Shown here: positions 33,548 through 49,044 of the stretch, piece by piece
Numbering within the stretch: position 1 is the stretch's first letter
Layout: each line of letters starts with the position of its first letter
IMG/VR virus record: IMGVR_UViG_3300048592_000564
Span: 1-64,000 of that record
DNA from: a virus
Reading direction: 5' to 3' (one strand)
Length of the DNA stretch: 64,000 nucleotides
Translations under genes and position numbers: made by a program
Notes under the pieces: generated by a model
The model's input: only the letters and a program-made list of their open reading frames with translations
The model's database searches: none
Told to the model about the DNA's origin: nothing

Positions 33548-33548
33548 G

Positions 33549-34840: not shown

Positions 34841-35094
34841 CCACGCCCAAGATCGACAGCCTGGAGGCAATGGAACGATTTATGGACGCCGTCCAGAAGG
34901 ACTATCGGCTATTCGCCCATCCGGACACGATCCAGCAAATGAGCGACATGCCCGCCACCCGCGACTTTGCGTCCAGGTTTGAAGCGAATCGCCACCTCGA
35001 GCCCGGCGACCTGATCGCGATCGATCCCGCGGTCTGGACGTTTACTAAGCCGCCACTTACCATCGCGCCAGGAGCCACCAATGGGCGTGTTTGA
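34837..35094 (+). CDS. Small protein of unknown function
   Basis: An 85-residue protein, helical start (SLEAMERFMDAVQKDYRLF) then a short beta tail. No family. ATGA-coupled to the kinase and overlapping the next gene by 14 bases. Confidence 0.5.
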   Translation: MTTPKIDSLEAMERFMDAVQKDYRLFAHPDTIQQMSDMPATRDFASRFEANRHLEPGDLIAIDPAVWTFTKPPLTIAPGATNGRV

Positions 35095-35443
35095 TTACGT
35101 GACCTGCCGCTACGAGCTCCCGCCTGAGTTCCCCCGGGACCTTGAATGGCAAAGCAAGAGCACCCCGGCCCAGTACCTGGACCACTACGAGATCCGCGAG
35201 GATGGGTCACTGTGGCACGAAACCTATGTCCATCGGGTCGAGACTCAATCAGATGGCTATTTCAACGTGCAGATGTATCGCGACAACCCGGAGTGGAAAC
35301 GCGAGGACTTCACTGGCGAGCTGGAGATCCACAGTAGCGACGACCGGCACTGGTACACGGTCCAGTTCTGGTTCCGCGACGGCGTCGTGAAGGATTTTGT
35401 GGCCAACGCCACCCCGTTACACAAAAAGGAGTGTGTCACATGA
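35081..35443 (+). CDS. Conserved phage protein (MGxFDY-type)
   Basis: A 120-residue protein that starts MGVFDYVTCRYELPPEFPR and has WQSKSTPAQYLDHYEIREDGSL. This start and layout recur in small phage proteins of unknown function. Rest is beta-rich (WYTVQFWFRDGVVKDF). No enzymatic motif seen. Four bases of overlap with the epimerase gene. Confidence 0.6.
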   Translation: MGVFDYVTCRYELPPEFPRDLEWQSKSTPAQYLDHYEIREDGSLWHETYVHRVETQSDGYFNVQMYRDNPEWKREDFTGELEIHSSDDRHWYTVQFWFRDGVVKDFVANATPLHKKECVT

Positions 35444-36399
35444 AGGTACTGGTCACCGGAGCCGCAGGCTATATCGGGAGTGCCGTTTGCTGGAAACTCC
35501 TGGAACACGGCCACGAGGTCGTGGCGCTCGACAACCTCAAGTACGGGACCGCCGACTCCGTGCCGCCCGGCGTGCCGCTGATCCGCCGCGACCTCGCGAG
35601 CCCCCAGGATCAACTCGCGATCGTGTACGCGCTAGAGAGCAACCAGATCGAGGCCGTGGCCCACCTCGCGGCCGAGAGCCTGATTCCCCTTTCGTTCGAG
35701 CAGCCCGAGCTATTCTGGCGGGTCAATGTCACCGGTGGGTTGATGTTGCTCGACGCCATGCGGCGCGCGGGCGTGCGGCGAATCCTCTACAGTTCCACGA
35801 GCTCCGTCTATGCCGAGCACCAGCCGATGCCGCTCACGGAGCAGAGCCCGATCGGGCCCAGCAGTTGCTACGGTGCGTCGAAATATGCGTTCGAGGATGC
35901 CCTGCGGTGGATGCGTAATTTGTCGTGGGTGGCGTTCCGGTACTTCAATGTCTGCGGCGCGACCGAGCACGTAACGGAAAAGCCGTACCATAGAAGCCGT
36001 TTAGTTCCAGTGGCCCTGGACGTCGCCTATGGCCGAGTCCCAGGGCCAATGCCGCTCAATGGAATCGACTACCAGGAAACGCGGGACCACACATGCTTGC
36101 GTGATTACATTCACGTCGACGATATCGCTCAGGCTCACGTCGCGGCCCTGGAGCACCCCGGTGCCACGGGTGTGTTCAATCTCGGGATTGGACGAGGATA
36201 CACCAATCGAGAAGTCATCGAGGCCGTTCGCCGAGTAGCAGGCAAGCCAGTTCCAGTCGTCGAAAAGCCGCGCCGCCCAGGAGACCCAGCCATGCTGGTT
36301 GCTGACGCTTCAAAGGCAGGCCGTGAACTGGACTGGGGCCCGGCCTACACCACCATTGAGCAAATGATTGAAACGTGCTGCAAATACGAACAGTTGTGA
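35440..36399 (+). CDS. galE: NAD-dependent nucleotide-sugar epimerase (GalE-like)
   Basis: A 319-residue extended SDR enzyme: VLVTGAAGYIGSAVCWKLL (NAD loop), SSTSSVYAEHQ, the catalytic CYGASKYAFE (YxxxK, near 148-152), FRYFNVCGATEH, and DYIHVDDIAQAHV, all as in UDP-glucose 4-epimerase. The last codons (TTIEQMIETCCKYEQL) are echoed in a frameshifted fragment at 37471-37563, beyond the inserted HNH gene, so the present 3' end may have arrived with the insertion. Confidence 0.85.
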   Translation: MKVLVTGAAGYIGSAVCWKLLEHGHEVVALDNLKYGTADSVPPGVPLIRRDLASPQDQLAIVYALESNQIEAVAHLAAESLIPLSFEQPELFWRVNVTGGLMLLDAMRRAGVRRILYSSTSSVYAEHQPMPLTEQSPIGPSSCYGASKYAFEDALRWMRNLSWVAFRYFNVCGATEHVTEKPYHRSRLVPVALDVAYGRVPGPMPLNGIDYQETRDHTCLRDYIHVDDIAQAHVAALEHPGATGVFNLGIGRGYTNREVIEAVRRVAGKPVPVVEKPRRPGDPAMLVADASKAGRELDWGPAYTTIEQMIETCCKYEQL

Positions 36400-36408
36400 T
36401 TTTGTCCA

Positions 36409-36474
36409 TTGAACTCGTGCTTTCAAAACGCTAAAATGCGAACGGCCCGAGCGTCGTTACCGCCCGAGCCGTTC
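36409..36474 (+). promoter_or_regulatory. Promoter and hairpin leader of HNH cassette 1
   Basis: TTGAAC (36409-36414), 17 bases, TAAAAT (36432-36437), then GCGAACGGCC and a hairpin whose arms are GAACGGC and GCCGTTC (36440-36474). The same -10 plus GCGAACGGCC plus hairpin recurs before the HNH genes at 39209 and 45166. Confidence 0.75.
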
Positions 36475-36505
36475 TAACCACTTCAACCTGCAAGGAGGTT
36501 TCATC

Positions 36506-37459
36506 GTGGCTCAAACATATTCTAGCGATCCGAGGCGTCCAGCGAAAGGCCAAATTGGTGACAGGTTTGGTCACTGGAAACTCATTGGCTTTGAAAGATG
36601 CGTCAAGCGAAACAAGCTCATGTATTTGTGCAAATGTGACTGCGGAACCGTTCGGGCACTGCAACCCGGCGCGCTGTTTGGATGTACCAGTACGTCGTGC
36701 GGGTGCCATAGAACCGCGATTCCGCCAGCACCTCCGCTGCCCACTGTCGATTCCGTAGAGTTCAGGACGCTCGAGCAATATCCTGGATATGCGTTTGGAA
36801 GCGACGGGTCGGTTTGGGGTTGCAGGGCAAGAGTGGTGGGGCGTGAACGCGGAAGGTGGACCAAGATAAATGGAGCCAAGGACAAAAACGGGTATCTTCG
36901 CGTGACAATCACGACGAGGTCCAGTTCCAAGACTCTCAAAATTCATGCCCTCATCCTTGAGGCGTTTACCGGCCCAAGGCCGCAGGGTTGTGTAAGCCGC
37001 CACCTGGACGGAAACCAAGCAAATAACGCAATAGCCAATTTGGCGTGGGGAACTCCCGCAGAAAACCAACGGGACTCTATATTGCATCGCACGCACGCAG
37101 GGCTGCGAAACAGCGGACGCGACAACCCAAATGCCAAGTTGTCGTTTAGTGACGTGGCTGAGATCATGCGACTAAAGCACGAGATGCCTTGTCGGGACAT
37201 CGCGAAACGATTTGACGTAACCGAAGGTGCCATCAAGTCCATATTCTCAGGCCGAACATGGTCGCACCTCACTGGAGCTGACGAAGAGTCCCAGACAATG
37301 AACCAACATGTGCGCGAATGGATTTCCTCGATCATGCAGTCTCCGCTTGGCATTGATTCAATCGCCTCCGCCCTGGATGAACTTGGGTATCGCTTAGCCG
37401 AAAAATGCACAGGCCGACATTTCGACGAACCAAATCAAACCGCCCAGGCATGCTTATGA
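36506..37459 (+). CDS. HNH homing endonuclease with Zn module and NUMOD4-like domain (copy 1)
   Basis: A 317-residue protein, GTG start behind AAGGAGG. Residues 15-70: a C-x-C...C-G-C zinc module (LCKCDCGTV, TSCGCHR). Near 90: YPGYAFGSDGSVWGCR (NUMOD4-like). Near 150-190: ILEAFTGPRPQG, SRHLDGNQANN, NLAWGTPAENQRD, the HNH core. Then a helix-turn-helix (CRDIAKRFDVTEGAIKSI). A 60-residue C-terminal extension is absent from the other copies. It stands alone between galE and a galE scar. Confidence 0.85.
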   Translation: MAQTYSSDPRRPAKGQIGDRFGHWKLIGFERCVKRNKLMYLCKCDCGTVRALQPGALFGCTSTSCGCHRTAIPPAPPLPTVDSVEFRTLEQYPGYAFGSDGSVWGCRARVVGRERGRWTKINGAKDKNGYLRVTITTRSSSKTLKIHALILEAFTGPRPQGCVSRHLDGNQANNAIANLAWGTPAENQRDSILHRTHAGLRNSGRDNPNAKLSFSDVAEIMRLKHEMPCRDIAKRFDVTEGAIKSIFSGRTWSHLTGADEESQTMNQHVREWISSIMQSPLGIDSIASALDELGYRLAEKCTGRHFDEPNQTAQACL

Positions 37460-37470
37460 CCGATGGCCCC

Positions 37471-37563
37471 ATGACCTTCAAGTGGACGCCACCAAAGTCC
37501 CCGCTACACTTCCCTGGAGCAAATGATTGAGTCCTGCTGGAAGTGGGAGCCGAAGTCTCAATA
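37471..37563 (+). pseudogene. Frameshifted remnant of a galE 3' end
   Basis: The frame ending at TAA 37561-37563 reads YTSLEQMIESCWKWEPKSQ, matching the YTTIEQMIETCCKYE end of the galE protein at 36399, with an identical 14-base stretch GAGCAAATGATTGA. Just upstream another frame reads TFKWTP, the expected preceding residues of a GalE, so a frameshift separates the parts. It lies on the far side of HNH copy 1. A TACACT at 37505 may act as a -10 for the next gene. Confidence 0.6.
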
Positions 37564-37580
37564 ACCGAAGGAAAGTATCT

Positions 37581-37958
37581 ATGTTGAATCGACGCACCCT
37601 ACTAGGCGGCCTTGCTGCCATTGCTTCTGGAGTTTGGTGTCAAGCAAAAACACTCGCCGCCCAGCGACACGATGGCGATGGTTCGACCATCTCTCCAGGC
37701 CAGCCCACCTGCCGAACTGCCTGGGTGTCCAGTGGACGCAAGCTGGATTTCGAGCGGTTTCATCGCGAATTTTCTATGGCGAGCTATCAGGGCCACAGGG
37801 TCGTGAACGCAATCAGCGTCTCCGATCGCAAGGGACGGACCGAATGGTATATCTGCCTGTCCGACGACACGGCCGAGAATCCCTACGATGAGATGCCGGC
37901 CAGGTTTGCGGGCCTCTTGTGCGAGGAAGCCAAGCGTCGACAGGAGCCCGCCGCATGA
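37581..37958 (+). CDS. Exported protein with twin-arginine-like signal
   Basis: A 125-residue protein. MLNRRTLLGGLAAIASGVWCQA has RR followed by a hydrophobic core, a Tat-like (or Sec) signal peptide. The mature part (FERFHREFSMASYQGHR, RTEWYICLSDD) has no family I know. GGAAAG site upstream of ATG. First gene after the HNH insertion. Confidence 0.55.
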   Translation: MLNRRTLLGGLAAIASGVWCQAKTLAAQRHDGDGSTISPGQPTCRTAWVSSGRKLDFERFHREFSMASYQGHRVVNAISVSDRKGRTEWYICLSDDTAENPYDEMPARFAGLLCEEAKRRQEPAA

Positions 37959-38134
37959 AAGCGTTTTGGTGGTGGTTTTGGACAATCAGTTCATTTCTGT
38001 ACGCGATATTCTGGCTTCACGCTGCCGCGACTCGCAATACCGACCACATGATGTCCTGTTTTGCAGCAGTGATCGCCTGCGGCGCGATGACCCGAACCTA
38101 CGAGGAGAAGCCATGCACGCCTACCGCCCCGTGA
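37955..38134 (+). CDS. Small membrane protein
   Basis: A 59-residue protein with two hydrophobic segments (FWWWFWTISSFLYAIFWL and MMSCFAAVIACGAM). ATGA-coupled to the exported protein. Function unknown. Confidence 0.5.
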   Translation: MKAFWWWFWTISSFLYAIFWLHAAATRNTDHMMSCFAAVIACGAMTRTYEEKPCTPTAP

Positions 38135-38493
38135 TTGACCGCTGCTGGATTGAACGCGAGAACGGCCACCAGCGCGACTACATCGACGCCATCGTGGCCC
38201 GCTACAACCAGCTGACGCTCGACCCCGACCGCAAAGAGCGAATGGCCGCCCAGCAGTGCGTGGTCTGCTGGAAGACCAGCCGGATTGGCGGCGCGGCCTG
38301 CACCCAGAGGCAGTGTGGACTTTGCGACACCACGCTCCACAGCGGTAGCACTAACATTGACGTATTGTGCCCTGAGTGCGCGCGACGTGCCAAACTGTGC
38401 CGGCACTGCGGGGCCGACTTGGAGCTGAAGAACCGACGCACCCGAGACATGCCGGAGCGAACGCCCGATATCAAGGAGGACGAGGAGTGCTAG
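38113..38493 (+). CDS. Conserved phage zinc-binding protein
   Basis: A 126-residue protein. The core CVVCWKTSRIGGAACTQRQC, then CDTTLHSGSTNID, LCPECA and LCRHCGADLEL has four C-x2-C pairs, a pattern I recognise from small phage proteins of unknown function. Probably two zinc sites. Overlaps the upstream gene by 22 bases. Confidence 0.65.
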   Translation: MHAYRPVIDRCWIERENGHQRDYIDAIVARYNQLTLDPDRKERMAAQQCVVCWKTSRIGGAACTQRQCGLCDTTLHSGSTNIDVLCPECARRAKLCRHCGADLELKNRRTRDMPERTPDIKEDEEC

Positions 38494-38879
38494 TTTGCCG
38501 AATCGAAATCTGGCCCCACGGATCATACGCCCGTCGGCGCACCCTCGGGACGCTCGTGATCGCGAACGACGGGACGGGCACCCAGGAGATCGGGCACTAC
38601 GACTGCGCGGTCGCGCACGCGGGACCGTATGCGGGAAAACCGGGGGCATGGCGAGGCGGTCGAGTGATCGGACACCTGCGGAAGCTCTCGCCCTATCACC
38701 TTGTGCGTGAAGCCCTGGCGGCGTGCCTGGAGGGGCGGCGTAGCAAGCGGGCCGACGGTCTGATCCAGCAGGTTCGCGACGCCGAGAGCGCCAAGCCGAT
38801 GATTGCGTTCGACAGCGCGGAAGAAATGCGAAAATTCACCGAGGGGTTCGCATACCGGCCCCAGGAGCAAGGATTATGA
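38487..38879 (+). CDS. Conserved phage protein (RIEIWPHG-type)
   Basis: A 130-residue protein with GTG start and GGAG site. LVCRIEIWPHG, GTLVIANDGTGTQEIGHYD and WRGGRVIGHLRKLSPYHLVREAL are typical of a small conserved phage protein of unknown function. ATGA-coupled to the next gene. Confidence 0.6.
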   Translation: MLVCRIEIWPHGSYARRRTLGTLVIANDGTGTQEIGHYDCAVAHAGPYAGKPGAWRGGRVIGHLRKLSPYHLVREALAACLEGRRSKRADGLIQQVRDAESAKPMIAFDSAEEMRKFTEGFAYRPQEQGL

Positions 38880-39061
38880 AGCTCGTCATCCAAGAACAAA
38901 AAACCAACGGCGTGGTGGCGAAATCCAGCACGACCACAACCTACCAGCCGGACGACGAACTTCGAGAGGTTGTCCATTATCTCGTGCGATGTCTCCAGAG
39001 CCTCACCCTGACGGCCGAACGTATCGTCAAGGTGATCGAACGCGAAACCAAGGGCGATTAG
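38876..39061 (+). CDS. Small protein of unknown function
   Basis: A 61-residue protein: beta start (KLVIQEQKTNGVVAK), then a helix (ELREVVHYLVRCLQSLTLTAERIVKVI kept short here). No family. A terminator follows its stop. Confidence 0.5.
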   Translation: MKLVIQEQKTNGVVAKSSTTTTYQPDDELREVVHYLVRCLQSLTLTAERIVKVIERETKGD

Positions 39062-39077
39062 TCAAGGACGACCCAAA

Positions 39078-39100
39078 GGCCCAGGGATGGGCCACTTTTT
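39078..39100 (+). terminator. Rho-independent terminator before HNH cassette 2
   Basis: GGCCCA, loop GGGA, TGGGCC (39078-39093), then AC and TTTTT (39096-39100). It separates the phage operon from the inserted HNH gene. Confidence 0.65.
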
Positions 39101-39114
39101 GGAAATTTTGCATG

Positions 39115-39179
39115 TGGATCTGTCCACTGAAAGTCTGTACAATGCGAACGGCCGCTGGGGTGTCGCCCAACGGCCGTTC
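39115..39179 (+). promoter_or_regulatory. Promoter and hairpin leader of HNH cassette 2
   Basis: TACAAT at 39138-39143, then GCGAACGGCC and a long hairpin GAACGGCCGCTGGG / CCCAACGGCCGTTC (39146-39179). The -35 is weak (TGGATC at 39115-39120, 17-base spacing). Same leader type as cassettes 1 and 3. Confidence 0.65.
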
Positions 39180-39208
39180 TGACCACCATCAACTTCAAGG
39201 AGTATCAG

Positions 39209-40174
39209 ATGGCTAGCACCAATCCTAGCACGCGCAGCCCAAGATTCAAGGATGAAACAGGAAAACGATACGGGCGATGGCTTGTTGTGTCTCACGTCGG
39301 TGGCGAATATTGCCAGTGCAAATGCGACTGCGGAACCGTTAAAGACGTGCTTCTTGCGGCGATACGCAAGGGCCAGTCAAAGAGCTGTGGATGCGCCCGC
39401 TATGACAACCTTCCAGATTTGACAGGCGCAGTCGTCGGCAAATGGACGGTTCTGGCGATGTGCGAAAAGTCCTCACCGAATGACGCACGCCGTTGGCTAT
39501 GTAAATGCGTGTGCGGCACAGAGAAGTCGGTGCGCGACGAATCACTGCGAAACGGAGAATCTACATCTTGTCGATGCGAACAAAAGAATGCTCATCCGAG
39601 GCTGTCCACAACCGACCAGTGCCCAATATTTCCAGTCAGCGAATCGGCAATAATCAAGCATTGCCCAGGGTATCTCGGCTATGCCGTCAGCGATCACGGG
39701 GATTTGTTCAGCTGTAGAAATAGAAACGGTTTCGCTGGGGCAGCAAAGCAATGGAGGCAATTGACGCGTCTCGGGTCCGACAAGGACGGCTATCGACGGA
39801 CAGTGTTTACGATTGACGGCAAACCGCATTACGTTAGACGCTGTGTTTTAGTGTTAGAGGCATTTATTGGGCCACGTCCAGAAGGAATGATGGTGAGACA
39901 CCTTGACGGGCATAACACCAATGATCGCTTGGACAATCTGGCCTGGGGTACTGCATCAGAAAACCAGCAAGATGCTGTCAGGCACGGAACGCAATCAGGA
40001 CTAAAGGTGCGCGGTGAATCCACGCCTAACCATAAGATCACCGAGGCCGATGTTATCGAAATACGACGCTTGGCAGGAACCATGCCCCAGAGGGCAATTG
40101 GCGAACTAGTCGGATTAACCCAAACCACGGTTGGTCAAATAATCAGGAGACAGGCATGGAAGCATGTCGCGTAA
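39209..40174 (+). CDS. HNH homing endonuclease with duplicated Zn module (copy 2)
   Basis: A 321-residue protein, AAGGAG site before ATG. Two zinc modules in tandem: GKRYGRW...CKCDCGTV...SCGCARY (residues 11-70) and GAVVGKWTV...CKCVCGTE...SCRCEQ (about 75-130). Then PGYLGYAVSDHGDLFSC (NUMOD4-like) and the HNH core VRHLDGHNTNDRLDNLAWGT, then an HTH (QRAIGELVGLTQTTVGQI). Its last 19 bases overlap the start of the heptose-kinase-like gene. Confidence 0.85.
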   Translation: MASTNPSTRSPRFKDETGKRYGRWLVVSHVGGEYCQCKCDCGTVKDVLLAAIRKGQSKSCGCARYDNLPDLTGAVVGKWTVLAMCEKSSPNDARRWLCKCVCGTEKSVRDESLRNGESTSCRCEQKNAHPRLSTTDQCPIFPVSESAIIKHCPGYLGYAVSDHGDLFSCRNRNGFAGAAKQWRQLTRLGSDKDGYRRTVFTIDGKPHYVRRCVLVLEAFIGPRPEGMMVRHLDGHNTNDRLDNLAWGTASENQQDAVRHGTQSGLKVRGESTPNHKITEADVIEIRRLAGTMPQRAIGELVGLTQTTVGQIIRRQAWKHVA

Positions 40175-41073
40175 TCAAATCCCAGGCACCCTGTAGGATT
40201 TCCATCTGCGGCGGTTCGAGCGACCTGTCCTACCACTGGAGGCGACATCGTGGCTTTTTGGTCACGGCCGCGATCGATAAATACGTGACCGTCACGGTGC
40301 AGCCGGGAAATCGAATTGACACATCGCCCCAGCACCCATACGCGACCGCAGCAGGCTGGAGTTCACGCGATCTGGTCACCATCGAAAGTGACCTGCTTCC
40401 TGGAAGTGGGCTGGGCGGAAGTTCGTGTCTTATGACTGCACTCCTGCGCGCCCGCCATTCTGACCTTCCGGTTCACGAGCTTGCGATGGCGGCCTACCAC
40501 GCCGAAAGGTTTGGTCAAATCGCAGCCCCAATTGGGTACCAGGACGGCTTCGCGGCAGCGTTCGGCGGTTGCATTGCCCTGGAGATCGACCACGCGGGCC
40601 GGGTCGCAACATGGCCCGTCGCGCTCCCCGCCGACTTCGAGCGCCGCCTTGTCCTGATGAACACTGGGGTTCAGCGCCCAGCCGCCGACGTGCTAAGGAA
40701 GCAAGAGGCGGCGACCAGCACGTCACTGGTAAGCCGGGAAGCGATGGAGTCGATAGCCAATCTTGGCCACGAAATCTACGCCGATATTCGCGACAACCAA
40801 GGCCAGAATTTCGGCCCCATGCTTGATCGTCACTGGAAATACAAACGAGCAGTTGCTAGTGTGATGTCAAATCCAGCGATCGACGCATGGTACGACCTCG
40901 CCCTGGATCACGGTGCCACCGGAGGAAAACTGATTGGCGCAGGGAGCTCCGGCTTCTTTTTGTTTGTCGTCCCGCCCGACCGTCGCTACCATTTTGTCGA
41001 CACCATGACGGCCGCGGGCCTGACGGAGCTTCCGTTCCAGTTTACCGACCAGGGGGCGAGGATTATCAAATGA
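40156..41073 (+). CDS. hddA: D-glycero-D-manno-heptose 7-phosphate kinase-like (HddA-type GHMP kinase)
   Basis: A 305-residue GHMP kinase of standard length. APCRISICGGSSDLSYHW (motif 1, with the GGGSDLP-like sugar loop), FLVTAAIDKYVTVTV, LPGSGLGGSSCLMTAL (ATP loop, about 82-97), APIGYQDGFAAAFGGC (QD, about 124-139), and KLIGAGSSGFFLFVV near 256. This order matches HddA, which phosphorylates heptose 7-phosphate at C1. It starts inside the end of HNH copy 2. Other GHMP sugar kinases remain possible. Confidence 0.75.
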   Translation: MEACRVIKSQAPCRISICGGSSDLSYHWRRHRGFLVTAAIDKYVTVTVQPGNRIDTSPQHPYATAAGWSSRDLVTIESDLLPGSGLGGSSCLMTALLRARHSDLPVHELAMAAYHAERFGQIAAPIGYQDGFAAAFGGCIALEIDHAGRVATWPVALPADFERRLVLMNTGVQRPAADVLRKQEAATSTSLVSREAMESIANLGHEIYADIRDNQGQNFGPMLDRHWKYKRAVASVMSNPAIDAWYDLALDHGATGGKLIGAGSSGFFLFVVPPDRRYHFVDTMTAAGLTELPFQFTDQGARIIK

Positions 41074-41276
41074 ACGACCTCATCGAAGCGCTGACGATCC
41101 TCCTGAAATACGGGAATCCCCGAAATCCGACGCACTGCGAGCACGACCAGCTCACGATCGCGGAAATCGACCCGAACGACGTCTCGCCAGAGGACCGGGC
41201 CAGGCTCTACGAACTCGGGTTTTTAGTGTCCGAGGCCGACGAGTGCTTTATGTCATTTCGATACGGGAGTGCGTGA
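41070..41276 (+). CDS. Small protein of unknown function
   Basis: A 68-residue acidic protein (IAEIDPNDVSPEDRARLYELGF), ATGA-coupled to the kinase and sharing a base with the next gene (TGATG). The helix plus LGF-x-V ending recalls short phage proteins of unknown role. Confidence 0.5.
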   Translation: MNDLIEALTILLKYGNPRNPTHCEHDQLTIAEIDPNDVSPEDRARLYELGFLVSEADECFMSFRYGSA

Positions 41277-41446
41277 TGACACCCGAGCAAGCCATTGAAC
41301 TGATCGAGAGAACCCTTGTGGAGCAGAAGCTAGCTCTACAGGCGTGGCACGACGCTTGGCTAATGCAGGGCGAGGGCCGCGTGCTCGCGATGGTGGAGGC
41401 CCACCGGAAGACCTGCCGGGCACTGGGGATGGAGGAGAACACGTGA
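41276..41446 (+). CDS. Small helical protein
   Basis: A 56-residue helical protein starting MTPEQAIELIERTLVEQKL. Called because of TGATG coupling upstream and ATG/GTG overlap downstream. No family. Confidence 0.45.
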   Translation: MTPEQAIELIERTLVEQKLALQAWHDAWLMQGEGRVLAMVEAHRKTCRALGMEENT

Positions 41447-41664
41447 GCGCCGAATTTTTCGCCGTCCAGGAACAAGATCGCTCACGGCTAGACCGCGCGA
41501 CCAAGACTACCTACGTGAACCTGGACGCGATCCTGTACGTCGACGACTACGGGGTTCGAGGCGAGCCCATGCGGGTGTCGTGCGTCGGAAAGGAAACCTA
41601 CTGGCTTGTAAACGACGACGCCGAACGGCTCGTCGCAAAGCTGAAGGAACGGTGCAAGTCATGA
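41443..41664 (+). CDS. Small beta protein of unknown function
   Basis: A 73-residue protein with GTG start. FAVQEQDRSRLDRATKTTYV, then short strands (ILYVDDYGVRG, YWLVNDD). No family. ATGA-coupled to the isomerase gene. Confidence 0.45.
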   Translation: MSAEFFAVQEQDRSRLDRATKTTYVNLDAILYVDDYGVRGEPMRVSCVGKETYWLVNDDAERLVAKLKERCKS

Positions 41665-42257
41665 GCCCAACTACCAACCTCCTGGACTGCTGCGTGCGGT
41701 CCATCCAAGGGCTCGACCACGAGCAGATCGACGACGCAGCCAGAATACTCTCCCGCGTTAGACGCGAACGCGGTCGGCTATTTCTCGCCGGCTCAGGCGG
41801 CGGGGCCGCGCACGCCTCGCACGCCTGCTGCGATTTCAGAAAACTTTGCGGCATCGAGGCATACTGTGTCTCGGACAACGCCGCCGAATTGACGGCCCGC
41901 GTCAACGACGACGGCTGGGAATCCAGTTATGCGAACTGGCTTCGGGTGCCCCGGCTTGATCGCAACGACGCCCTACTGATCGTGAGCGTCGGAGGAGGAT
42001 CCACGCACCCACCGGTATCCACGAACCTCGTGACCGCAATGGAGTTCGCTCGATCGCTCGGGGCCGCTACCCTGGCCGTGGTTGGCCGTGATGGAGGACA
42101 CGCGGGCCGGGTGGCCGATGTCGCGGTCCTGATCCCGTGCGATCGGCCGGAATTCGTGACGCCGGTCACGGAGGCGGTCCAGAGCGTAGTGCTCCACGCC
42201 CTCGCGGTCCATCCCCTGTTGGCAATCCTGAAGGCGAAATGGGAGGGACTTGTATGA
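41661..42257 (+). CDS. gmhA: SIS-domain sugar phosphate isomerase (GmhA-type)
   Basis: A 198-residue SIS protein of GmhA length. FLAGSGGGAAHASHACCDF (about 42-60) corresponds to the GNGGSAADAQH loop, CVSDNAAELTARVNDDGW to the DT-x-LTA-x-AND segment, LIVSVGGGSTHPPV to the S-x-SGNS loop, and VVGRDGGHAGRVADVAVLIP to the GxDGG region; TEAVQSVVLHALAVH supplies the late H. GmhA turns sedoheptulose 7-phosphate into heptose 7-phosphate. Neighbour kinase and phosphatase support this. Confidence 0.78.
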   Translation: MSPTTNLLDCCVRSIQGLDHEQIDDAARILSRVRRERGRLFLAGSGGGAAHASHACCDFRKLCGIEAYCVSDNAAELTARVNDDGWESSYANWLRVPRLDRNDALLIVSVGGGSTHPPVSTNLVTAMEFARSLGAATLAVVGRDGGHAGRVADVAVLIPCDRPEFVTPVTEAVQSVVLHALAVHPLLAILKAKWEGLV

Positions 42258-42421
42258 ACGCGAGGACGTTGCGGTTTGCGATGAGCTTCATTACCGGATC
42301 ACTGACAGGAGTTGCCATTGCGGAACTCAATCGCGGCCATCTCGCGACCGCAATTGGATTGACGCTTGCCGTTGCTGTGTCGGTGTTTTTCCGCTGCCTA
42401 ACGATCGAGCATTCGCCATGA
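42254..42421 (+). CDS. Small two-helix membrane protein
   Basis: A 55-residue protein with hydrophobic stretches (FAMSFITGSLTGVAIA and IGLTLAVAVSVFF). ATGA overlaps on both sides. Function unknown. Confidence 0.5.
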   Translation: MNARTLRFAMSFITGSLTGVAIAELNRGHLATAIGLTLAVAVSVFFRCLTIEHSP

Positions 42422-42744
42422 ACCCCTACGAACAATGCTTCCATGACCTCGGGATCGAGTCCCCCACGATTGAAGACCGCCGGGCCCTGCGCCGTCTGGT
42501 CGCCACCGTGGCGCCCGACGTCCGGACGGTCGAGCGAGCCCGCCTCGAGGCGTCCACGCAGCGTCGACGGTGCCGCGAGGACGACGCCAGGGTCGACGTG
42601 TTGCGAGACGCCATCGAGGCCGTGCTGGCGCTACCGCGTGTCCCGGGCACGATTGAACGCAGGCTCCAGGCCGCGATGGACGCGACCGCCTACGACGGCC
42701 GGACCGTGCAAGAGATCGTCCGCGCCGCCGGGGAGGTGACGTGA
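42418..42744 (+). CDS. Helical protein of unknown function
   Basis: A 108-residue, Arg/Ala-rich helical protein (RRALRRLVATVAPDVRTVER; DARVDVLRDAIEAVLAL). No family. Ends just before the promoter of the AP2-type insertion. Confidence 0.5.
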   Translation: MNPYEQCFHDLGIESPTIEDRRALRRLVATVAPDVRTVERARLEASTQRRRCREDDARVDVLRDAIEAVLALPRVPGTIERRLQAAMDATAYDGRTVQEIVRAAGEVT

Positions 42745-42758
42745 CGAGCAGATTTTTG

Positions 42759-42787
42759 TTGTTTTGTCGCCATGACGTGGCTACCAT
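42759..42787 (+). promoter_or_regulatory. Promoter of the AP2/sigma-like gene
   Basis: TTGTTT (42759-42764), 17 bases, TACCAT (42782-42787), GC before the -10 box. About 50 bases separate it from ATG 42837. It has no GCGAACGGCC hairpin leader. Confidence 0.65.
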
Positions 42788-42836
42788 CCTGCAGGAACGC
42801 TACGCATCTACGCGGTTGGGATTGAAAGCAAGTCAC

Positions 42837-43748
42837 ATGGGACCCAAGAGAATTAAGCCGCATACCAAAATAGTTGATGTTCGCCGCGAACCAGACAAAA
42901 TCCTTCCCGTGTCGTGGATCAGCCTTGCTGAATCAACCGCCCATGAACTTGCGTATCGCTTTGGCATGTCCTACGAGCACGTTATCTCGATTTCAAATGC
43001 AATCAAAGACGGAATGGCTCACGTGTATCCGTCTCTAAATGGAATATCCAGAATCGACGCAGGCAAACAGCACACGTGGTTTGCCCGAATCCATCGCGGC
43101 GCAGTGTCCGGCAGTCACACCGCAGCCAAGTCGTTCGCCGACAGCCGATGCGGTGGGCGAGAAAAGGCCCTTCAGGCAGCAAGGCAGTGGCGAGACGACA
43201 CGCTGGCTACGATAGTAATCGCAACACCAAAGGAACACGCCTGTGTAAAAACGACCAATCGGCAGCGGCGCGAAACTATGGAGAAGCAATTGCAGGTGCA
43301 TGGCAAGTGCTACATGCGAACCGGAACCGGCTTACTGGCAAGCAAGCGAGCCGCGATTGAGTTTGGCCAGCACGGCAAGACCTGTGCGGCGATTCGCGAT
43401 GGTGCTCAGGACGGCTTCTACCTTGGCGGCAACCGGCCGCGTTACGCCGTCGCCGGCTTCATGAATGAAATCACGCCCAGGATTGAAAAGCAGATCCGAC
43501 GAGAAATCAGGAGACGAGCCAGGCACTGGATGTCCAGCGAGGACATTGAACTGGCGGCGAGCAACGCTATGATGTCCTGGGCGTCAATCGACCTGTCTAG
43601 CGTATCGGAAGACTATATTGAACGACTGGCAGGAAGCGTGGTCAGGACCGCCGACCGAAGACGCTCGGCAGAACGAAAAAAACAGGGGGTATCGCTTGAT
43701 CTTAATGGCGAGATCGAAACCCTAGAGCGACAAAGAGAACGATGGTAG
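42837..43748 (+). CDS. AP2-like DNA-binding protein with C-terminal sigma-like helical region
   Basis: A 303-residue protein. Residues about 70-125 (WFARIHRGAVSGSHTAAKSF, then GGREKALQAARQWRDDTLA) look like an AP2-type DNA-binding domain, common in homing-endonuclease-like genes. The last 90 residues (IRRRARHWMSSEDIELAAS, SEDYIERLAGSVVRTADR) resemble the helical region 2 of sigma factors. No HNH motif seen. ATG 42837 is chosen because the promoter lies between 42741 and it. Independent transcription suggests a mobile insertion. Confidence 0.6.
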   Translation: MGPKRIKPHTKIVDVRREPDKILPVSWISLAESTAHELAYRFGMSYEHVISISNAIKDGMAHVYPSLNGISRIDAGKQHTWFARIHRGAVSGSHTAAKSFADSRCGGREKALQAARQWRDDTLATIVIATPKEHACVKTTNRQRRETMEKQLQVHGKCYMRTGTGLLASKRAAIEFGQHGKTCAAIRDGAQDGFYLGGNRPRYAVAGFMNEITPRIEKQIRREIRRRARHWMSSEDIELAASNAMMSWASIDLSSVSEDYIERLAGSVVRTADRRRSAERKKQGVSLDLNGEIETLERQRERW

Positions 43749-43865
43749 CAACGGGCCATTTGCCGCGCATTCTTGTTGAGTGCTCGGTGTCCTCTTCAGC
43801 TTTCTGGCTGACCGCGGGGGGACGGCATATATGGAAGCGTCACCGCCATCTGGCCCATTGCTACC
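43744..43865 (+). other. Non-coding stretch closed by a 15-bp inverted repeat (candidate structured RNA)
   Basis: GGTAGCAACGGGCCA (43744-43758) pairs with TGGCCCATTGCTACC (43851-43865), one G-U. Inside are CCGCG/CGCGG and CAGC-TTTCTG-GCTG helices and a GACG/CGTC helix, so a branched fold is possible. It fills most of the 220-base gap 43749-43969, where I see no convincing gene (a frame from 43831 looks weakly coding only). Confidence 0.4.
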
Positions 43866-43969
43866 TCGACAGCAAATTAAGACAACGCCCCGGTTCACCC
43901 AGTCGCCGAGGTGGACCTTCCATTTGAATCCGACCCAACCGGCGGCTTGGGTGCAACCGATGGTTCGCC

Positions 43970-44197
43970 ATGACGTTCGCGTGCTATTGGGATCGCCTCC
44001 GGGCCGCAACACCCGGCCTGAGCAACGACGAGACCTCGATGCGGATCAGCGTCTTGAACTTCCGGCTCGCGATCAGCCGAGCCTACGCGGCCGGACGTGA
44101 CGAGGCCCGGCAGCACATCGAGCGAACCGCCGACGAACTCACGGGCGACCAGGGCATCATGGACGTGTTCAAGGGGATTTTCGGGGACAAGCGATGA
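43970..44197 (+). CDS. Small helical protein of unknown function
   Basis: A 75-residue protein (NFRLAISRAYAAGRDEARQHI). Helical and charged, ends VFKGIFGDKR. ATGA-coupled to the next gene. No family. Confidence 0.5.
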   Translation: MTFACYWDRLRAATPGLSNDETSMRISVLNFRLAISRAYAAGRDEARQHIERTADELTGDQGIMDVFKGIFGDKR

Positions 44198-44565
44198 CAA
44201 GATTTGAAAAGTTACTCGCGTACCTGCTCAAGTACCATTTTACCTACGACGAACTGGAAAAAATCGTCGACCTCAAACTGGAATGCGAGCACTATAGCGA
44301 CATCGAGAGAGTCGTGTTTCCTGAATTGTCCCCAGCGGTCAATAAGCTATTGGCCCGGATGGGATGGGACGAAAAGCCGTACATTGAACGACTTCTTGAT
44401 GAGCAAAGGCTCTATATGCAGGCGATCCATCAAGACGAACTGGCAGAACGGCAGGCCCTTATCGAACGCATGCACACGCAATGCCATTCGGTTCGCAACC
44501 TTGCTAGCATGCGCGACGCCGCCCAAAGGTTTTTGCGTGACACCGAGGACTGTAAGGTCTCATGA
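44194..44565 (+). CDS. Helical protein of unknown function
   Basis: A 123-residue protein, mostly helix (FEKLLAYLLKYHFTYDELEK; RDAAQRFLRDTEDC). Base composition is lower in GC than neighbours. ATGA overlaps on both sides tie it to the GmhB-type gene. No family. Confidence 0.5.
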   Translation: MTRFEKLLAYLLKYHFTYDELEKIVDLKLECEHYSDIERVVFPELSPAVNKLLARMGWDEKPYIERLLDEQRLYMQAIHQDELAERQALIERMHTQCHSVRNLASMRDAAQRFLRDTEDCKVS

Positions 44566-45059
44566 ATCAGGCATGCTTTTTCGATCTCGACGGAACTTTG
44601 GTCCGCGCTTTCCCCGAGGGCGACACCACCCGTGGACCACGGACCCGCGATGAGGTTGAAATCCTGCCGGGCACCAAAGAGTCGCTCGACCGACTATTCG
44701 ACGCAGGCTACGCGTTGCTTGTGGTCACGAACCAGCCGGGACTTGCCCGCGGCGACCTCGACCCATTGGAACACGCGGGCGTTCGGCTGATGATCCGCGT
44801 GGAACTGCCGGTTCGCAAAATCTATACTTGCCCGCACGACGGCGACTGGTGCGCATGCAGGAAGCCGCGGCCGGGGCTCATCATCGGAGCCGCGGTCGAA
44901 TACGAACTCGACCTCGCCCGCTGCTGGATGATCGGCGACCGGGAGTCGGACCGTGAGGCCGCGATCCGGGCCGGGATCCCGCAGGCCCAGACGATCAAGC
45001 TCGAAACCAACCAAGGCATCAAGGAGGCGGTGGACGCAATCCTTGCCTTTGCAAAATGA
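44562..45059 (+). CDS. gmhB: Heptose 1,7-bisphosphate phosphatase-like HAD protein (GmhB-type)
   Basis: A 165-residue HAD phosphatase: CFFDLDGTLV (D8, D10), LLVVTNQPGLARGDL (motif II), YTCPHDGDWCACRKPRPGLI (the four-Cys zinc loop plus motif III lysine), and CWMIGDRESDREAAI (motif IV). The zinc loop C-P-H and the TNQ motif are specific to the GmhB/HisB-N group, and the neighbouring GmhA-type and HddA-type genes favour GmhB, which removes the C7 phosphate of heptose 1,7-bisphosphate. Confidence 0.8.
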   Translation: MNQACFFDLDGTLVRAFPEGDTTRGPRTRDEVEILPGTKESLDRLFDAGYALLVVTNQPGLARGDLDPLEHAGVRLMIRVELPVRKIYTCPHDGDWCACRKPRPGLIIGAAVEYELDLARCWMIGDRESDREAAIRAGIPQAQTIKLETNQGIKEAVDAILAFAK

Positions 45060-45071
45060 CCGTTTTTATAC

Positions 45072-45136
45072 TTGAACGACCGTACAGTAATCGGTAACAT
45101 GCGAACGGCCCGGACGTTGGAGCGCCCGAGCCGTTC
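45072..45136 (+). promoter_or_regulatory. Promoter and hairpin leader of HNH cassette 3
   Basis: TTGAAC (45072-45077), 17 bases, TAACAT (45095-45100), then GCGAACGGCC and hairpin arms GAACGGC / GCCGTTC (45103-45136). The -35, spacer length and leader are the same as at 36409. Confidence 0.75.
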
Positions 45137-45165
45137 TAACCACCATCAGCTGTAGGGAGCGTCAA

Positions 45166-45756
45166 GTGGCTTCGATAAATTGTATCATGGACTGCCCGCC
45201 GTTGCCAGTTGTAGAAGGTGTTGAAATTCGGCACTGCGAAGGATATCCAGGGTACGCCATTGGCAGCGATGGCTCCCCGTGGTCGTGCCGGCCGTGCGTC
45301 CGAACTGGGCTCAAAATAGCATGGAGGCGACTTACGCCATGCCCAGACAAACAAGGCTACCTGCACATCAGTTGCCAGGTGAACGGGCGGCTGATTCGCC
45401 CCAAAATAGGCCACCTTGTAGCCAACGCATTCATCGGGCCAAATCCAGGAAAGCTGGATTTGTGTCACGGGGACGGCAATAAGCAGAACAACCGCGTCGA
45501 AAACCTGCGGTGGGGGACTCGCAGCGAGAACACGCAGGACGCATTACGGCACGGCACGTTTCACATTGTTGGGCATCCAGGGGAACGTAACGCAAACTCC
45601 AAAATTACCGCATCGCAGGTCAAGGAAATTCGCAGCACCCCAGGGAAAAGCCACGTCGAATGGGCGCGCGAACTTGGCGTTACCCCAACGGCAATTTATT
45701 CAATTCGCGCAGGAAGGACATGGAAGAATGAACCAAGCCCTCGACATAACGATTGA
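45166..45756 (+). CDS. HNH homing endonuclease without Zn module (copy 3)
   Basis: A 196-residue protein with GTG start behind GGGAG. It lacks the N-terminal zinc module of the other two. YPGYAIGSDGSPWSC near 30, ANAFIGPNPGKLDLC, GDGNKQNNRVENLRWGT (HNH core, about 95-112), then HVEWARELGVTPTAIYSI (HTH). The last 29 bases overlap the start of the transaldolase-like gene, as copy 2 does with the kinase gene. Confidence 0.85.
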   Translation: MASINCIMDCPPLPVVEGVEIRHCEGYPGYAIGSDGSPWSCRPCVRTGLKIAWRRLTPCPDKQGYLHISCQVNGRLIRPKIGHLVANAFIGPNPGKLDLCHGDGNKQNNRVENLRWGTRSENTQDALRHGTFHIVGHPGERNANSKITASQVKEIRSTPGKSHVEWARELGVTPTAIYSIRAGRTWKNEPSPRHND

Positions 45757-46459
45757 CGTGTTTTGCGACTCCGCCGACCTCACGATCATGCACGGAATCG
45801 TGGAGCAGTACCCCTATGTGCGAGGCTGGACCACCAACCCTTCGATCTGCCGACGCTGTGGGGTCGTGGACTACAAGGGCTTTATCGTGGACGCGCTCAC
45901 GAAGCTGCCACCGCTCCCCTTGTCCGTCGAGGTTGTGGCCGACGAGCCACGCGAGATTGATAAGCAGGCCCGCTACCTGGAACGCTTGGCTCGCTTGCAC
46001 GGTCGGCGAGATACGCTGTATGTCAAGGTCCCAGCCGTGAACTCGCGCGGCATTTCGCTCGCGCCATTGATGCGAGAACTTGCCCAGGATGGCGTGCAGA
46101 TCAACGCCACGGCGGTGCTGTCCTACGAGAGCGCCGAACTGGTTACCGACGCCCTGTCGGGCGGTCCCGCCTCTTGGGTCTCGGTCTTTGTCGGGAGACT
46201 GGCCGACCGAGGCACTGAACCACTGGACGAAATGCCGCGATATGTGAAGCGGATCAACGAAGCGACCCGCACAATCTGGGCCAGTCCCCGAGAACCGCTA
46301 AACGTGCTTCAAGCGCAACGCCTCGGCTTCGACGCTATCACGGTGTTTCACGACTTCATCAAAAAGCTCCACCTGTTCGGCAAGGACTTGCGTGAGTTTG
46401 AGATTGAGACGAGCCGTATGTTCTTGCAGGATTCCATTTCGGCGGGGTACCAGATATGA
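45728..46459 (+). CDS. Transaldolase / fructose-6-phosphate aldolase family protein
   Basis: A 243-residue protein of TalC/FSA type: DVFCDSADLTIMHGIVEQY, GWTTNPSICRR (TTNPS motif), LSVEVVADEP, TLYVKVPAVN (Schiff-base lysine near 99), INATAVLSYESA, SVFVGRLADRG. Transaldolases can make sedoheptulose 7-phosphate, the substrate of GmhA, so it fits the start of the heptose route. It begins inside the end of HNH copy 3. Confidence 0.8.
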   Translation: MNQALDITIDVFCDSADLTIMHGIVEQYPYVRGWTTNPSICRRCGVVDYKGFIVDALTKLPPLPLSVEVVADEPREIDKQARYLERLARLHGRRDTLYVKVPAVNSRGISLAPLMRELAQDGVQINATAVLSYESAELVTDALSGGPASWVSVFVGRLADRGTEPLDEMPRYVKRINEATRTIWASPREPLNVLQAQRLGFDAITVFHDFIKKLHLFGKDLREFEIETSRMFLQDSISAGYQI

Positions 46460-46680
46460 CAAACCGCCCCCTTCAATACGGCCGATGGAACATCCGATGC
46501 CGACTGACCGTTGACTGCCTGCGCCGAACCTACGACCGCGACCCCGGCTGGAGACTACTCAGCATCGGGATATTCCGGCTCGCGCCCATGATCCCCGTTG
46601 GCGATGATCCCCGTTACCACGTCGAGCGGGGCTTCTGGTGGGAAATCGACATCTGGCTCCCGTGGAGGATTCGCTCGTGA
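46456..46680 (+). CDS. Small basic protein of unknown function
   Basis: A 74-residue Trp/Arg-rich protein (WNIRCRLTVDCLRRTYDRD; FWWEIDIWLPWRIRS). ATGA overlaps with both neighbours. No family. Confidence 0.5.
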   Translation: MTNRPLQYGRWNIRCRLTVDCLRRTYDRDPGWRLLSIGIFRLAPMIPVGDDPRYHVERGFWWEIDIWLPWRIRS

Positions 46681-46964
46681 AAATCGCCCTCGACTTCGAC
46701 GACACCCTGACGGCCGACCCGAGGCTCTGGGCCGTGTTCGTAAATGCCGCCCGCAGCCGCGGCCACGAGGTCTGGCTCGTGACCGCCCGACGGGACACCG
46801 AGGAGAACCGCCAGATCATCGAGGCATGGCTCGACCACTGGGGCCACAATCTCCCGGTCCTGTTTACCAATCTCGGCAGCAAACTCGCGGCCGTGGAGCG
46901 GCAGGGCATCAAGATCGACATCTGGATCGATGACGACCCCGCGAGCCTTGTAAACGGACGCTGA
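46677..46964 (+). CDS. Small HAD-like hydrolase
   Basis: A 95-residue protein with GTG start: VKIALDFDDTLTADP (HAD motif I), HEVWLVTARRDTEEN (motif II region), IDIWIDDDPASL (motif IV acidic). Minimal HAD core without a cap, as in phage polynucleotide-phosphatase-like proteins. Substrate unknown; it may support the sugar-phosphate steps around it. Confidence 0.7.
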   Translation: MKIALDFDDTLTADPRLWAVFVNAARSRGHEVWLVTARRDTEENRQIIEAWLDHWGHNLPVLFTNLGSKLAAVERQGIKIDIWIDDDPASLVNGR

Positions 46965-46965
46965 A

Positions 46966-47538
46966 ATGAAACTTGGCCTGCACGCATCAGCTTTCGACCC
47001 GATCCACCCAGGCTATCTGTACGCGTGGCATCAGGCCCTGGACGCCGGGGCGTGCGACGGCATCGTGGCCGCGATCCATGCAGACCCAAGTACCGAAAGG
47101 TCAGAGAAACGCCGCCCGGCCATGACGGTCAAGGAACGAATCGCGATCCTGGAGCAATTCCGCGTCGTCCAGACGGTCTGCGTCTACGTCGACGAACGGC
47201 AGTTGTACGAGATGATCAGGAGCACCCGTCCCGCGTGCCTGATCATAGGCGAAGACCACGAGTTCGACCGCGTGACCGGCGCCGACCTCGCGCCAGTGTT
47301 TTGGGCCAAACGCAATCCCGAGTGGTCCGGTACCCAGATCGCGAGACGCATTGCCGCCAGTTTGCCCGACGTGGCCGCGAGCCTACGATTCACCGAAGGA
47401 CTCGACCCCGAGGTCATGGCCCGCTATCCTGCCCAGGACCTCCTGAGCATCCACGCGATCTTCAAGTCCATCGGGGACGCGTTCGACCGCCACCTGGCCG
47501 ACCGCGCGGCCCGTGGATGCGAGCCCGGCCAGATGTAA
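46966..47538 (+). CDS. Cytidylyltransferase-fold nucleotidyltransferase (RfaE2/HldE-C-like)
   Basis: A 190-residue protein: LGLHASAFDPIHPGYLYAWH (residues 3-22, the HxGH-type motif appears as HPGY), IVAAIHADPSTERSEKRRPAM, KERIAILEQFRVV, CLIIGEDHEFD, and WSGTQIARRIAAS (the S-x-T-x-I-x-x-I motif). The order fits RfaE domain II, which joins heptose 1-phosphate to a nucleotide. The second His of HxGH is Tyr here, so activity needs proof. Residues beyond 130 are an extra domain. Confidence 0.65.
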   Translation: MKLGLHASAFDPIHPGYLYAWHQALDAGACDGIVAAIHADPSTERSEKRRPAMTVKERIAILEQFRVVQTVCVYVDERQLYEMIRSTRPACLIIGEDHEFDRVTGADLAPVFWAKRNPEWSGTQIARRIAASLPDVAASLRFTEGLDPEVMARYPAQDLLSIHAIFKSIGDAFDRHLADRAARGCEPGQM

Positions 47539-47551
47539 CGAAAGGACCGCG

Positions 47552-47857
47552 ATGCCAACCGACCTTAAACTTGTGCAACGGCGTACTAACGCCATGCTGT
47601 GGTGTGTCCGATGCGGATACCTCGGCGGCGTATCCGTGACACTCAAGGGCGGGGCATGGATTCCCGCGGCGATCTGGCGATTCCTGGAACGAATCAGGAC
47701 GGCGTTTAGTGACCAGTTTCGCGACGACATGATCTGGTGCCTAGAATCCTTTGAAAGGACCGCCGATGCCAAGCCGCCGAGCCAAAGCGTACCGGGCCAA
47801 GGAAATCCGCCGTCTGATCCAGGAGTTCAAGGCCCAGGGGTGCCGGGTGTGCGGTGA
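47552..47857 (+). CDS. Small protein of unknown function
   Basis: A 101-residue protein with AAAGGA before the ATG. Residues 1-70 (NAMLWCVRCGYLGGVSVTL, WIPAAIWRFLERIRTAF) look real; the Pro/Gly-rich tail overlaps the HNH gene by 92 bases and may not be conserved. No family. Confidence 0.4.
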   Translation: MPTDLKLVQRRTNAMLWCVRCGYLGGVSVTLKGGAWIPAAIWRFLERIRTAFSDQFRDDMIWCLESFERTADAKPPSQSVPGQGNPPSDPGVQGPGVPGVR

Positions 47858-48056
47858 GCAGGATCCGTGCTGCCTGACGGCCCATCATCTCGACCCGGCA
47901 AAGAAGAGGTTTAGCGTCTCACCCGCGGCCCTGATTCGTTCGAGAATTGGACTGCAGGCCATCCGGGCGGAACTCGCGGGATGCACGCCCCTCTGTGCAA
48001 ATTGCCACCAAAAGCACAATCACGCCAAACTGGAGATTCCATGCACGCAATCTTGA
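47766..48056 (+). CDS. Small HNH-type zinc endonuclease-like protein
   Basis: A 96-residue protein: GCRVCGEQDPCCLTAHHLDP (C-x2-C then HH) and CTPLCANCHQKHNHAK (C-x2-CH), the metal-bound HNH fold. Basic N-terminus. AAAGGA site before ATG. It has no promoter or leader of the cassette type, so it is part of the operon. Confidence 0.75.
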   Translation: MPSRRAKAYRAKEIRRLIQEFKAQGCRVCGEQDPCCLTAHHLDPAKKRFSVSPAALIRSRIGLQAIRAELAGCTPLCANCHQKHNHAKLEIPCTQS

Positions 48057-48385
48057 CCGTTCCGTTCAGCCAGTCCCGCGGTCGAGTGGTCGACCAAGTG
48101 ATCTATTCCAAATACGCCGAGGCCGCGATCGTGCGGTGGCAGGACGGGGCCTATTCGTTCATCGGCTACAAGCCCGGATACGAGGCAGGCGACGGCGAGC
48201 TTCGGGACGAAGAATGGGACGACCGACAGTTCTCGGAACAGGAGATTATGGCGGCCGGGATCGCGACCCAACAGGACCTTGACCAGCGGAAAGCCGAAAT
48301 TGCGGCGCGGTTTGAAAGCAACCAACGAACCGCAAGGCTGCTTCAGTTTCAGCGGCTCAAGCAAGAGTTCGAACCGGGGGAATAG
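48041..48385 (+). CDS. Phage protein of unknown function
   Basis: A 114-residue protein: beta N-terminal half (HAILTVPFSQSRGRVVDQV, YSFIGYKPGYEAG) then a helical tail (LDQRKAEIAARFESNQRTA). No family. Confidence 0.5.
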   Translation: MHAILTVPFSQSRGRVVDQVIYSKYAEAAIVRWQDGAYSFIGYKPGYEAGDGELRDEEWDDRQFSEQEIMAAGIATQQDLDQRKAEIAARFESNQRTARLLQFQRLKQEFEPGE

Positions 48386-48387
48386 CC

Positions 48388-49044
48388 ATGTCGATCCTGA
48401 TCGGCCTCTTGACCTGCCATGCCCACCGGGAGCGGGACCTGCTCGTCGAGCAGACCTGGAAGCCCGTCGCGGAATCCTTGGGCATGCGGGTCGTGTTCCT
48501 GATCGGGGACGGCCCCAAGGTACCGCCGACGTGGCTCGACGGGGACTATCTGCGGATCCCGTGCCCGGACGACTACCCACATTTGCCGCAGCGATCGGCT
48601 GGATTCTTCCGTTGGGCGCTCACGCAGCCCGACTGGGATGTGCTTGTCAAAGGAGACAACGATTCCCTGATCATTCCCGAGCGACTCGCGGCCGTCTCGA
48701 TGGAGGACGTGGACTACCGTGGCGCCGAGTGGAAACCGGGGGTCAATTATGCGAGCGGCGGGGCAGGCTACATGCTTTCCCGCCACGCCACCCAGATCGC
48801 GGCCGAGAGACTGAAGGAGCGGGCGGGCGCCGAAGACCTCCTAACTGGAAAGCACTTGCGACGGGCCGGGATCAAGTTCACGATCGACCAACGCTTCGAC
48901 CCGTGGGGCCGCGACCCGCCGACACCCGAGAACGACAAGATCACGACCCACAAGCTCGACCGGGAGCGGTGGCTGGCGTGCTGGGGGCAGTTTCAGCGGT
49001 CGAGTCCGCAGACCCGACAGAATGTGGACGAGCACCCAGAGTAA
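48388..49044 (+). CDS. GT31-like glycosyltransferase
   Basis: A 218-residue protein: LIGLLTCHAHRERDLLVEQTW, VVFLIGDGP, DWDVLVKGDNDSLIIPERL (DxD-like DND), YASGGAGYMLSRHAT and AEDLLTGKHLRRAGI. The G-G-A-G-Y-x-L and E-D patterns match the beta-1,3-galactosyltransferase (GT31) fold. Last gene of the plus-strand island; it overlaps the convergent gene at 48993 by 52 bases. Confidence 0.75.
   Translation: MSILIGLLTCHAHRERDLLVEQTWKPVAESLGMRVVFLIGDGPKVPPTWLDGDYLRIPCPDDYPHLPQRSAGFFRWALTQPDWDVLVKGDNDSLIIPERLAAVSMEDVDYRGAEWKPGVNYASGGAGYMLSRHATQIAAERLKERAGAEDLLTGKHLRRAGIKFTIDQRFDPWGRDPPTPENDKITTHKLDRERWLACWGQFQRSSPQTRQNVDEHPE

Follow-up and report, generated by a model that had tools for sequence, protein, structure and literature searches.

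GDP-heptose is made in Campylobacter jejuni by GmhA, HddA, GmhB and HddC (PMC10680097), and the ADP-heptose pathway consists of GmhA, HldE, GmhB and HldD. Single heptose genes are already known to be carried by phages: gmhA has been listed among phage metabolic genes (PMC9238414), and the heptose genes of cyanophage SynMITS9220M01 have been noted as related to lipopolysaccharide (PMC7378029). Here we analyzed a group of heptose-type genes on a 64,000-nucleotide stretch of viral DNA (referred to as the window), which is the first 64 kb of the 72,344-base IMG/VR virus record IMGVR_UViG_3300048592_000564. An earlier note on this DNA had listed five such enzymes on one strand at 40156–47538 and had read them as a pathway to activated heptose. 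All five open reading frames (ORFs) were confirmed on the plus strand, and each matches a heptose-pathway family with a score below the family cut-off. We consider it about two-thirds probable that the region is one phage operon making nucleotide-activated heptose.

The window shares with the C. jejuni route an isomerase, an HddA-type C1 kinase and a C7 phosphatase in an equal logical order (PMC10680097). However, it has a small nucleotidyltransferase of the HxGH superfamily in place of HddC, an extra transaldolase, and an isomerase of another SIS subfamily. The ADP-heptose pathway likewise has an isomerase, a phosphatase and an HxGH-superfamily nucleotidyltransferase (the best NCBIfam match in the window is rfaE_dom_II), but the window's kinase is of the GHMP/HddA type instead of HldE, its nucleotidyltransferase is structurally nearer to TagD and carries HPGY, and its epimerase is GalE-like rather than HldD. 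Four of the five enzymes, including the SIS subfamily and TalC, are shared with a cellular HddA-HddC-SIS-GmhB-TalC cassette, which has HddC where the window and many viruses have the small nucleotidyltransferase. SynMITS9220M01 and Caulobacter phage Cr30 also combine HddA with an HxGH nucleotidyltransferase in one phage (PMC7378029). Unlike the window, these two phages possess classical GmhA and not the TalC-linked SIS, the five-enzyme cassette is incomplete at that place, and the epimerase of SynMITS9220M01 is annotated as HldD. In the open-access literature we found no description of the TalC-linked cassette or of the HddC swap, and only single-gene mentions for phages.

Conserved gene order and recurrence of the cassette

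The clustering of the heptose genes is not due to chance, as judged from their order in a related contig and from dozens of loci, viral as well as cellular, in which they occur together. In the 26-kb viral contig IMGVR_UViG_3300025115_000359 (here L170), genes for an NAD epimerase, HddA, SIS, GmhB, TalC, the nucleotidyltransferase and a GT31-like glycosyltransferase follow each other immediately and without inserts, and the window holds counterparts of all seven in the same order (Table 1). An SSB gene is also common to both. The L170 proteins are only moderately similar to those of the window; the two epimerases are 53% identical, and that of L170 (4488–5432) abuts HddA. The true module therefore spans 35431–49044, so the clustering seen in the earlier note is real and its extent was drawn too narrowly. 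All module ORFs are intact. The window enzymes are separated by three HNH ORFs and small ORFs, and many neighbors from HddA to the nucleotidyltransferase, over much of 40156–46680, overlap by 4 bases (ATGA type), which would fit a single transcript.

Profile searches of IMG/VR returned 389 HddA relatives and 235 relatives of the window SIS, and at least 565 SIS relatives were found in bacterial and archaeal genomes. The neighborhoods within 8 kb of SIS were then counted for the 80 best cellular loci and 78 viral loci. The cellular loci contain HddA in 60 cases, an HddC-like gene in 60, GmhB in 70 and TalC in 65, and most of the 80 follow the order HddA-HddC-SIS-GmhB-TalC. This order was observed (L088–L167) in a wide range of bacterial and archaeal phyla, methanogens and candidate phyla among them. 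A small nucleotidyltransferase occurs in just one cellular locus, as a 42-bit match on the opposite strand, and in none at 100 bits or more. Among the viral loci, HddA is present in 59, GmhB in 56, TalC in 70, the small nucleotidyltransferase in 51 and HddC in 14, and all five window-type genes occur together in 34. The viral excess of the small nucleotidyltransferase is strong (Fisher test, 7e-22), but the viral loci, many of which come from a single T4-like clade, are not independent. The combination of this kinase with this nucleotidyltransferase, called unusual in the earlier note, is in fact a recurrent phage arrangement.

HddC was found neither by tblastn nor by the PF00483 (NTP_transferase) profile in the 72-kb record, while all 14 control genomes matched. 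The SIS tree places L170 next to the window as its sister (100/98), away from the T4-like group that bears the nucleotidyltransferase. A tree in which all nucleotidyltransferase-bearing rows were forced to be monophyletic was rejected (approximately unbiased test, p=1.6e-4), and a faster tree of 146 rows concurs. Since one clade is rejected, HddC was probably swapped for a small nucleotidyltransferase more than once in viruses. The viral contigs that keep HddC are dispersed among cellular rows on the same tree and may include misassigned cellular DNA.

Residues and structures of the five enzymes

The assignment of the kinase to the HddA type is supported: its PDB matches are the heptose kinases 4n3o and 3k85, and it retains the GHMP motifs GSGLGGSS, D130 and K258..GAG. 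The GmhB type also stands after the alternative of a HisB-N-only protein was checked, as the PRK08942 match is well ahead of that to HisB-N (9.4e-13). Its zinc loop, CPH...CAC, aligns with solved GmhB structures, the HAD motifs and CxH...CxC are present, and D8, D10, K101 and D126 are conserved. The designation TalC/FSA for the transaldolase can be narrowed to TalC and not FSA, with TIGR02134 scoring far above FSA (6.8e-15). Besides the Schiff-base residue K100, it shares E68 and F154 with the Thermoplasma transaldolase of solved structure, whereas FSA (E. coli FsaA) has Gln and Tyr at these positions. This signature favours, as a prediction, transfer chemistry yielding sedoheptulose 7-phosphate.

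The SIS protein (AlphaFold model pLDDT 95.6) has GmhA structures as its top Foldseek matches, with TM about 0.75–0.79 and E about 1e-11, and DiaA scores similarly. H54, D58, E171 and H179 are invariant in 30 members of the subfamily. At the positions of the E. coli GmhA active-site tetrad, presumably H61, E65, Q172 and H180, the window protein reads H/D/E/H; both His are kept, and the two acidic/amide changes are common to viral GmhA-type proteins. Loss of the catalytic His was ruled out, the residue being present as H179. The protein is a distinct GmhA-fold subfamily, predicted to be an isomerase of sedoheptulose 7-phosphate or a related ketose phosphate. Of the earlier GmhA-type assignment, the fold is therefore retained, whereas the subfamily differs, so that even the heptose can be named only tentatively.

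The nucleotidyltransferase had been designated RfaE2-type and placed on the ADP route. In the viral family to which it belongs, rfaE_dom_II matches 29 of 29 members and TagD 28 of 29. With the family profile, ethanolamine-phosphate cytidylyltransferase and TagD come out as the best solved structures, before RfaE-like proteins; the AlphaFold model, which has a pLDDT of 80 and is poor beyond residue 135, is likewise nearest to TagD, with HldC seventh. The protein is thus not clearly RfaE2: TIGR02199 is its best NCBIfam match, but several families of the superfamily match and RfaE2 just ranks first among them. Because the nearest structures are CTP enzymes and the motif is HPGY, the label ADP-route is too strong; the product could be ADP-, CDP- or another nucleoside diphosphate heptose.

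Proposed pathway and alternative readings

From these assignments we infer every reaction as well as the exact sugar, nucleotide and acceptor. The transaldolase would use fructose 6-phosphate and erythrose 4-phosphate to form sedoheptulose 7-phosphate, and the SIS protein would convert it to aldoheptose 7-phosphate. HddA would phosphorylate C1, GmhB would remove the 7-phosphate, and the small nucleotidyltransferase, acting where the bacterial cassette has HddC, would couple heptose 1-phosphate with a nucleotide, most likely CTP or ATP. The GalE-like epimerase may alter a stereocentre of the sugar, and the GT31-like enzyme and/or other phage glycosyltransferases would transfer the heptose to a glycan that most likely belongs to the virion or to the surface of the host. 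Conserved synteny and the residues kept in each enzyme strengthen this reading of the earlier note, which is still the best one.

Several observations weigh against it. The scores of all five proteins are far under the NCBIfam equivalog cut-offs: 133 bits against 600 for HddA (NF049969), 44.7 against 209 for SIS (gmhA, TIGR00441), 87 against 178 for GmhB (PRK08942), 214 against 282 for the transaldolase (transald_staph, TIGR02134) and 43.9 against 181.5 for the nucleotidyltransferase (rfaE_dom_II, TIGR02199). The gene identities therefore hold at the superfamily or family level, short of strict membership in these families. In addition, the kinase has K128 replaced by Y and an N-terminal domain about 25–30 residues shorter (its glycine loop G264G265 also reads SS), the nucleotidyltransferase has FDPIHPGY at the HxGH site, and the SIS phosphate loop carries an insertion and reads SVGGGx(6)S, not SxSGNS, throughout the subfamily. 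Finally, among viral HddA loci, 13 of 13 with the window-type SIS also carry TalC, against 0 of 47 with classical GmhA (Fisher test, 2e-13; the counts include the near-copies L067–L069), a strict pairing that could mean a different sugar.

The last two points would be explained if the cassette made an activated sugar other than D-glycero-D-manno-heptose, for example another heptose stereoisomer, or an octose formed with a pentose-5-phosphate acceptor, the TalC-linked SIS having diverged in substrate. TalC would indeed be an odd companion of one isomerase only if it merely supplied the common precursor sedoheptulose 7-phosphate. The linkage may equally reflect either a pair handling a particular sugar or plain cassette inheritance, which would yield the same pattern; the partners are HddA, GmhB and, in cells, HddC, and the fold and catalytic tetrad positions of SIS are GmhA-like. 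We regard this alternative as unlikely, although it is the most credible of those considered.

The kinase substitutions and the HPGY motif, together with the HNH insertions between genes, might instead indicate host genes that were picked up and are now decaying or repurposed, with the pathway inactive. Against this, the ORFs are all intact, key residues are retained, the order is shared with L170 despite moderate protein similarity, and HPGY recurs in the nucleotidyltransferases of two further viral loci (L225 and L235) and SynMITS9220M01; decay is hence improbable. We give as little weight to a sugar for phage DNA, comparable to the arabinose of RB69 (hydroxymethylcytosine glycosylation), in which SIS-like and NTP-transferase-like genes have been proposed to supply the DNA sugar (PMC6024577). 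The T4-like version of the cassette does have a GT4-type transferase by HddA and near a T4-type exonuclease gene. But PF00303 (thymidylate synthase/hydroxymethylase) is absent from the window's record and from 12 cassette-bearing viral records, the largest of 178 kb and all possibly fragments, and the window's GT6, GT2, GT4 and FkbM genes suit a glycan rather than a base.

Glycosyltransferases, genomic context and implications

The activated-heptose reading also agrees with the neighboring glycosyltransferases. An island at 24163–36399 encodes a GT4, an FkbM methyltransferase, a GT11-like protein, a UDP-glucose dehydrogenase, a GT2, a GT6-FkbM protein, a second GT2 and the GalE-like epimerase, so that a complex phage-made glycan is plausible. 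In this island the GT6 domain (ABO-type) is fused to FkbM, and the ORFs at 28766 and 33704 are without family assignment; a further GT4-type glycosyltransferase lies beyond it at 12603–13955. The GT31-like protein, whose homolog in L170 directly follows the nucleotidyltransferase on its 3' side, is the candidate transferase in the window phage. In the T4-like version, a GT4-type transferase is located directly upstream of HddA in about 80 viral loci (e.g. 11845–12849 of L192), in classical-GmhA and TalC-linked loci alike; related proteins occur in Cr30, phiM12, DLP_6 and Pelagibacter phages. These proteins are a possible heptosyltransferase family, and no homolog of them is present in the window's record. 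The sugar is likely destined for a phage-made glycan of the virion or of the cell surface of the host, as had been suggested, whereas the window sequence lends no support to altered heptose-nucleotide signalling.

Table 1. Features of the module in the window
Feature	Coordinates	Strand	Best supporting match
NAD-dependent GalE-like nucleotide-sugar epimerase	35431–36399	+	galE TIGR01179, 294 bits (above the cut-off of 262)
HNH endonuclease ORF inside module	36506–37459	+	phrog_59, 1.5e-31
HNH endonuclease ORF, overlaps HddA start	39209–40174	+	Pfam HNH_3, 1.6e-10
HddA-type GHMP kinase, predicted heptose-7-phosphate 1-kinase, 305 aa	40156–41073	+	NF049969, 1.6e-38
SIS isomerase, TalC-linked subfamily, GmhA fold, 198 aa from ATG	41661–42257	+	TIGR00441, 1.4e-11
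Zinc-loop HAD phosphatase of the GmhB type, predicted heptose-1,7-bisphosphate 7-phosphatase, 165 aa	44562–45059	+	PRK08942, 9.6e-25
HNH endonuclease ORF, overlaps TalC start	45166–45756	+	Pfam HNH_3, 2.8e-11
TalC-type small transaldolase, predicted sedoheptulose 7-phosphate source, 243 aa	45728–46459	+	TIGR02134, 1.9e-63
Small HAD-like protein, just 5' of nucleotidyltransferase	46677–46964	+	phrog_4256, 7.6e-22
Small HxGH-superfamily nucleotidyltransferase (RfaE2/TagD-like), predicted sugar-1-phosphate nucleotidyltransferase, 190 aa	46966–47538	+	TIGR02199, 2e-11; phrog_7878, 1.1e-18
GT31-like glycosyltransferase (motifs DND and ED..G), candidate enzyme using the activated sugar	48388–49044	+	Pfam Galactosyl_T, 8.8e-6

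A HAD-like domain, separate from the nucleotidyltransferase in the window, is fused to the homologous protein of SynMITS9220M01 (L004, 16052–16801). Between SIS and GmhB there is also a 335-aa ORF (42741–43748) with no family match and, by eye, perhaps an AP2-like DNA-binding stretch. The genome had been described as phage-like, and the record is ranked viral by IMG/VR and contains phage tail-like, replication-initiator, SSB, DnaB, phage-metallopeptidase and HNH genes; no large terminase was detected in it with phrog_2, PF03237 or PF03354. Single-protein IMG/VR searches with the window's HddA, nucleotidyltransferase, DnaB and tail protein, which reach close kin only, returned no relatives, and neither the window SIS nor that of the viral locus L191 matched any of 50,697 phage records. 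Elsewhere in the window we observed a phage-encoded sigma-70-like factor (53762–54712, minus strand), a minus-strand ORF (14168–15166) in which a prokaryotic N-terminal methylation (pilin-like) motif scores weakly (0.0003), and a queuine tRNA-ribosyltransferase-like gene (57461–58414; phrog_887, 1.8e-60; no Pfam match at 0.01), whose product could be a candidate DpdA-type DNA modification enzyme.

The cassette is small and can be tested in vitro. Its analysis also gives a name to a widespread cellular subfamily of TalC-linked isomerases, for which we found no function described in the open-access literature. What is new relative to the single phage genes is that distant phages share a path leading from central metabolism to activated heptose that is almost self-sufficient and includes a candidate glycosyltransferase. 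The consistent exchange of one enzyme between the phage and the cellular version points to a distinct nucleotide sugar. Tentatively, and with the odds against it, phages may have rebuilt the HddA cassette more than once, with a TagD-like nucleotidyltransferase replacing HddC, and would thereby decorate virions or hosts by way of an unrecognised nucleotide heptose (e.g. CDP-heptose); the starting sugar might be one accepted by the TalC-linked isomerase alone.

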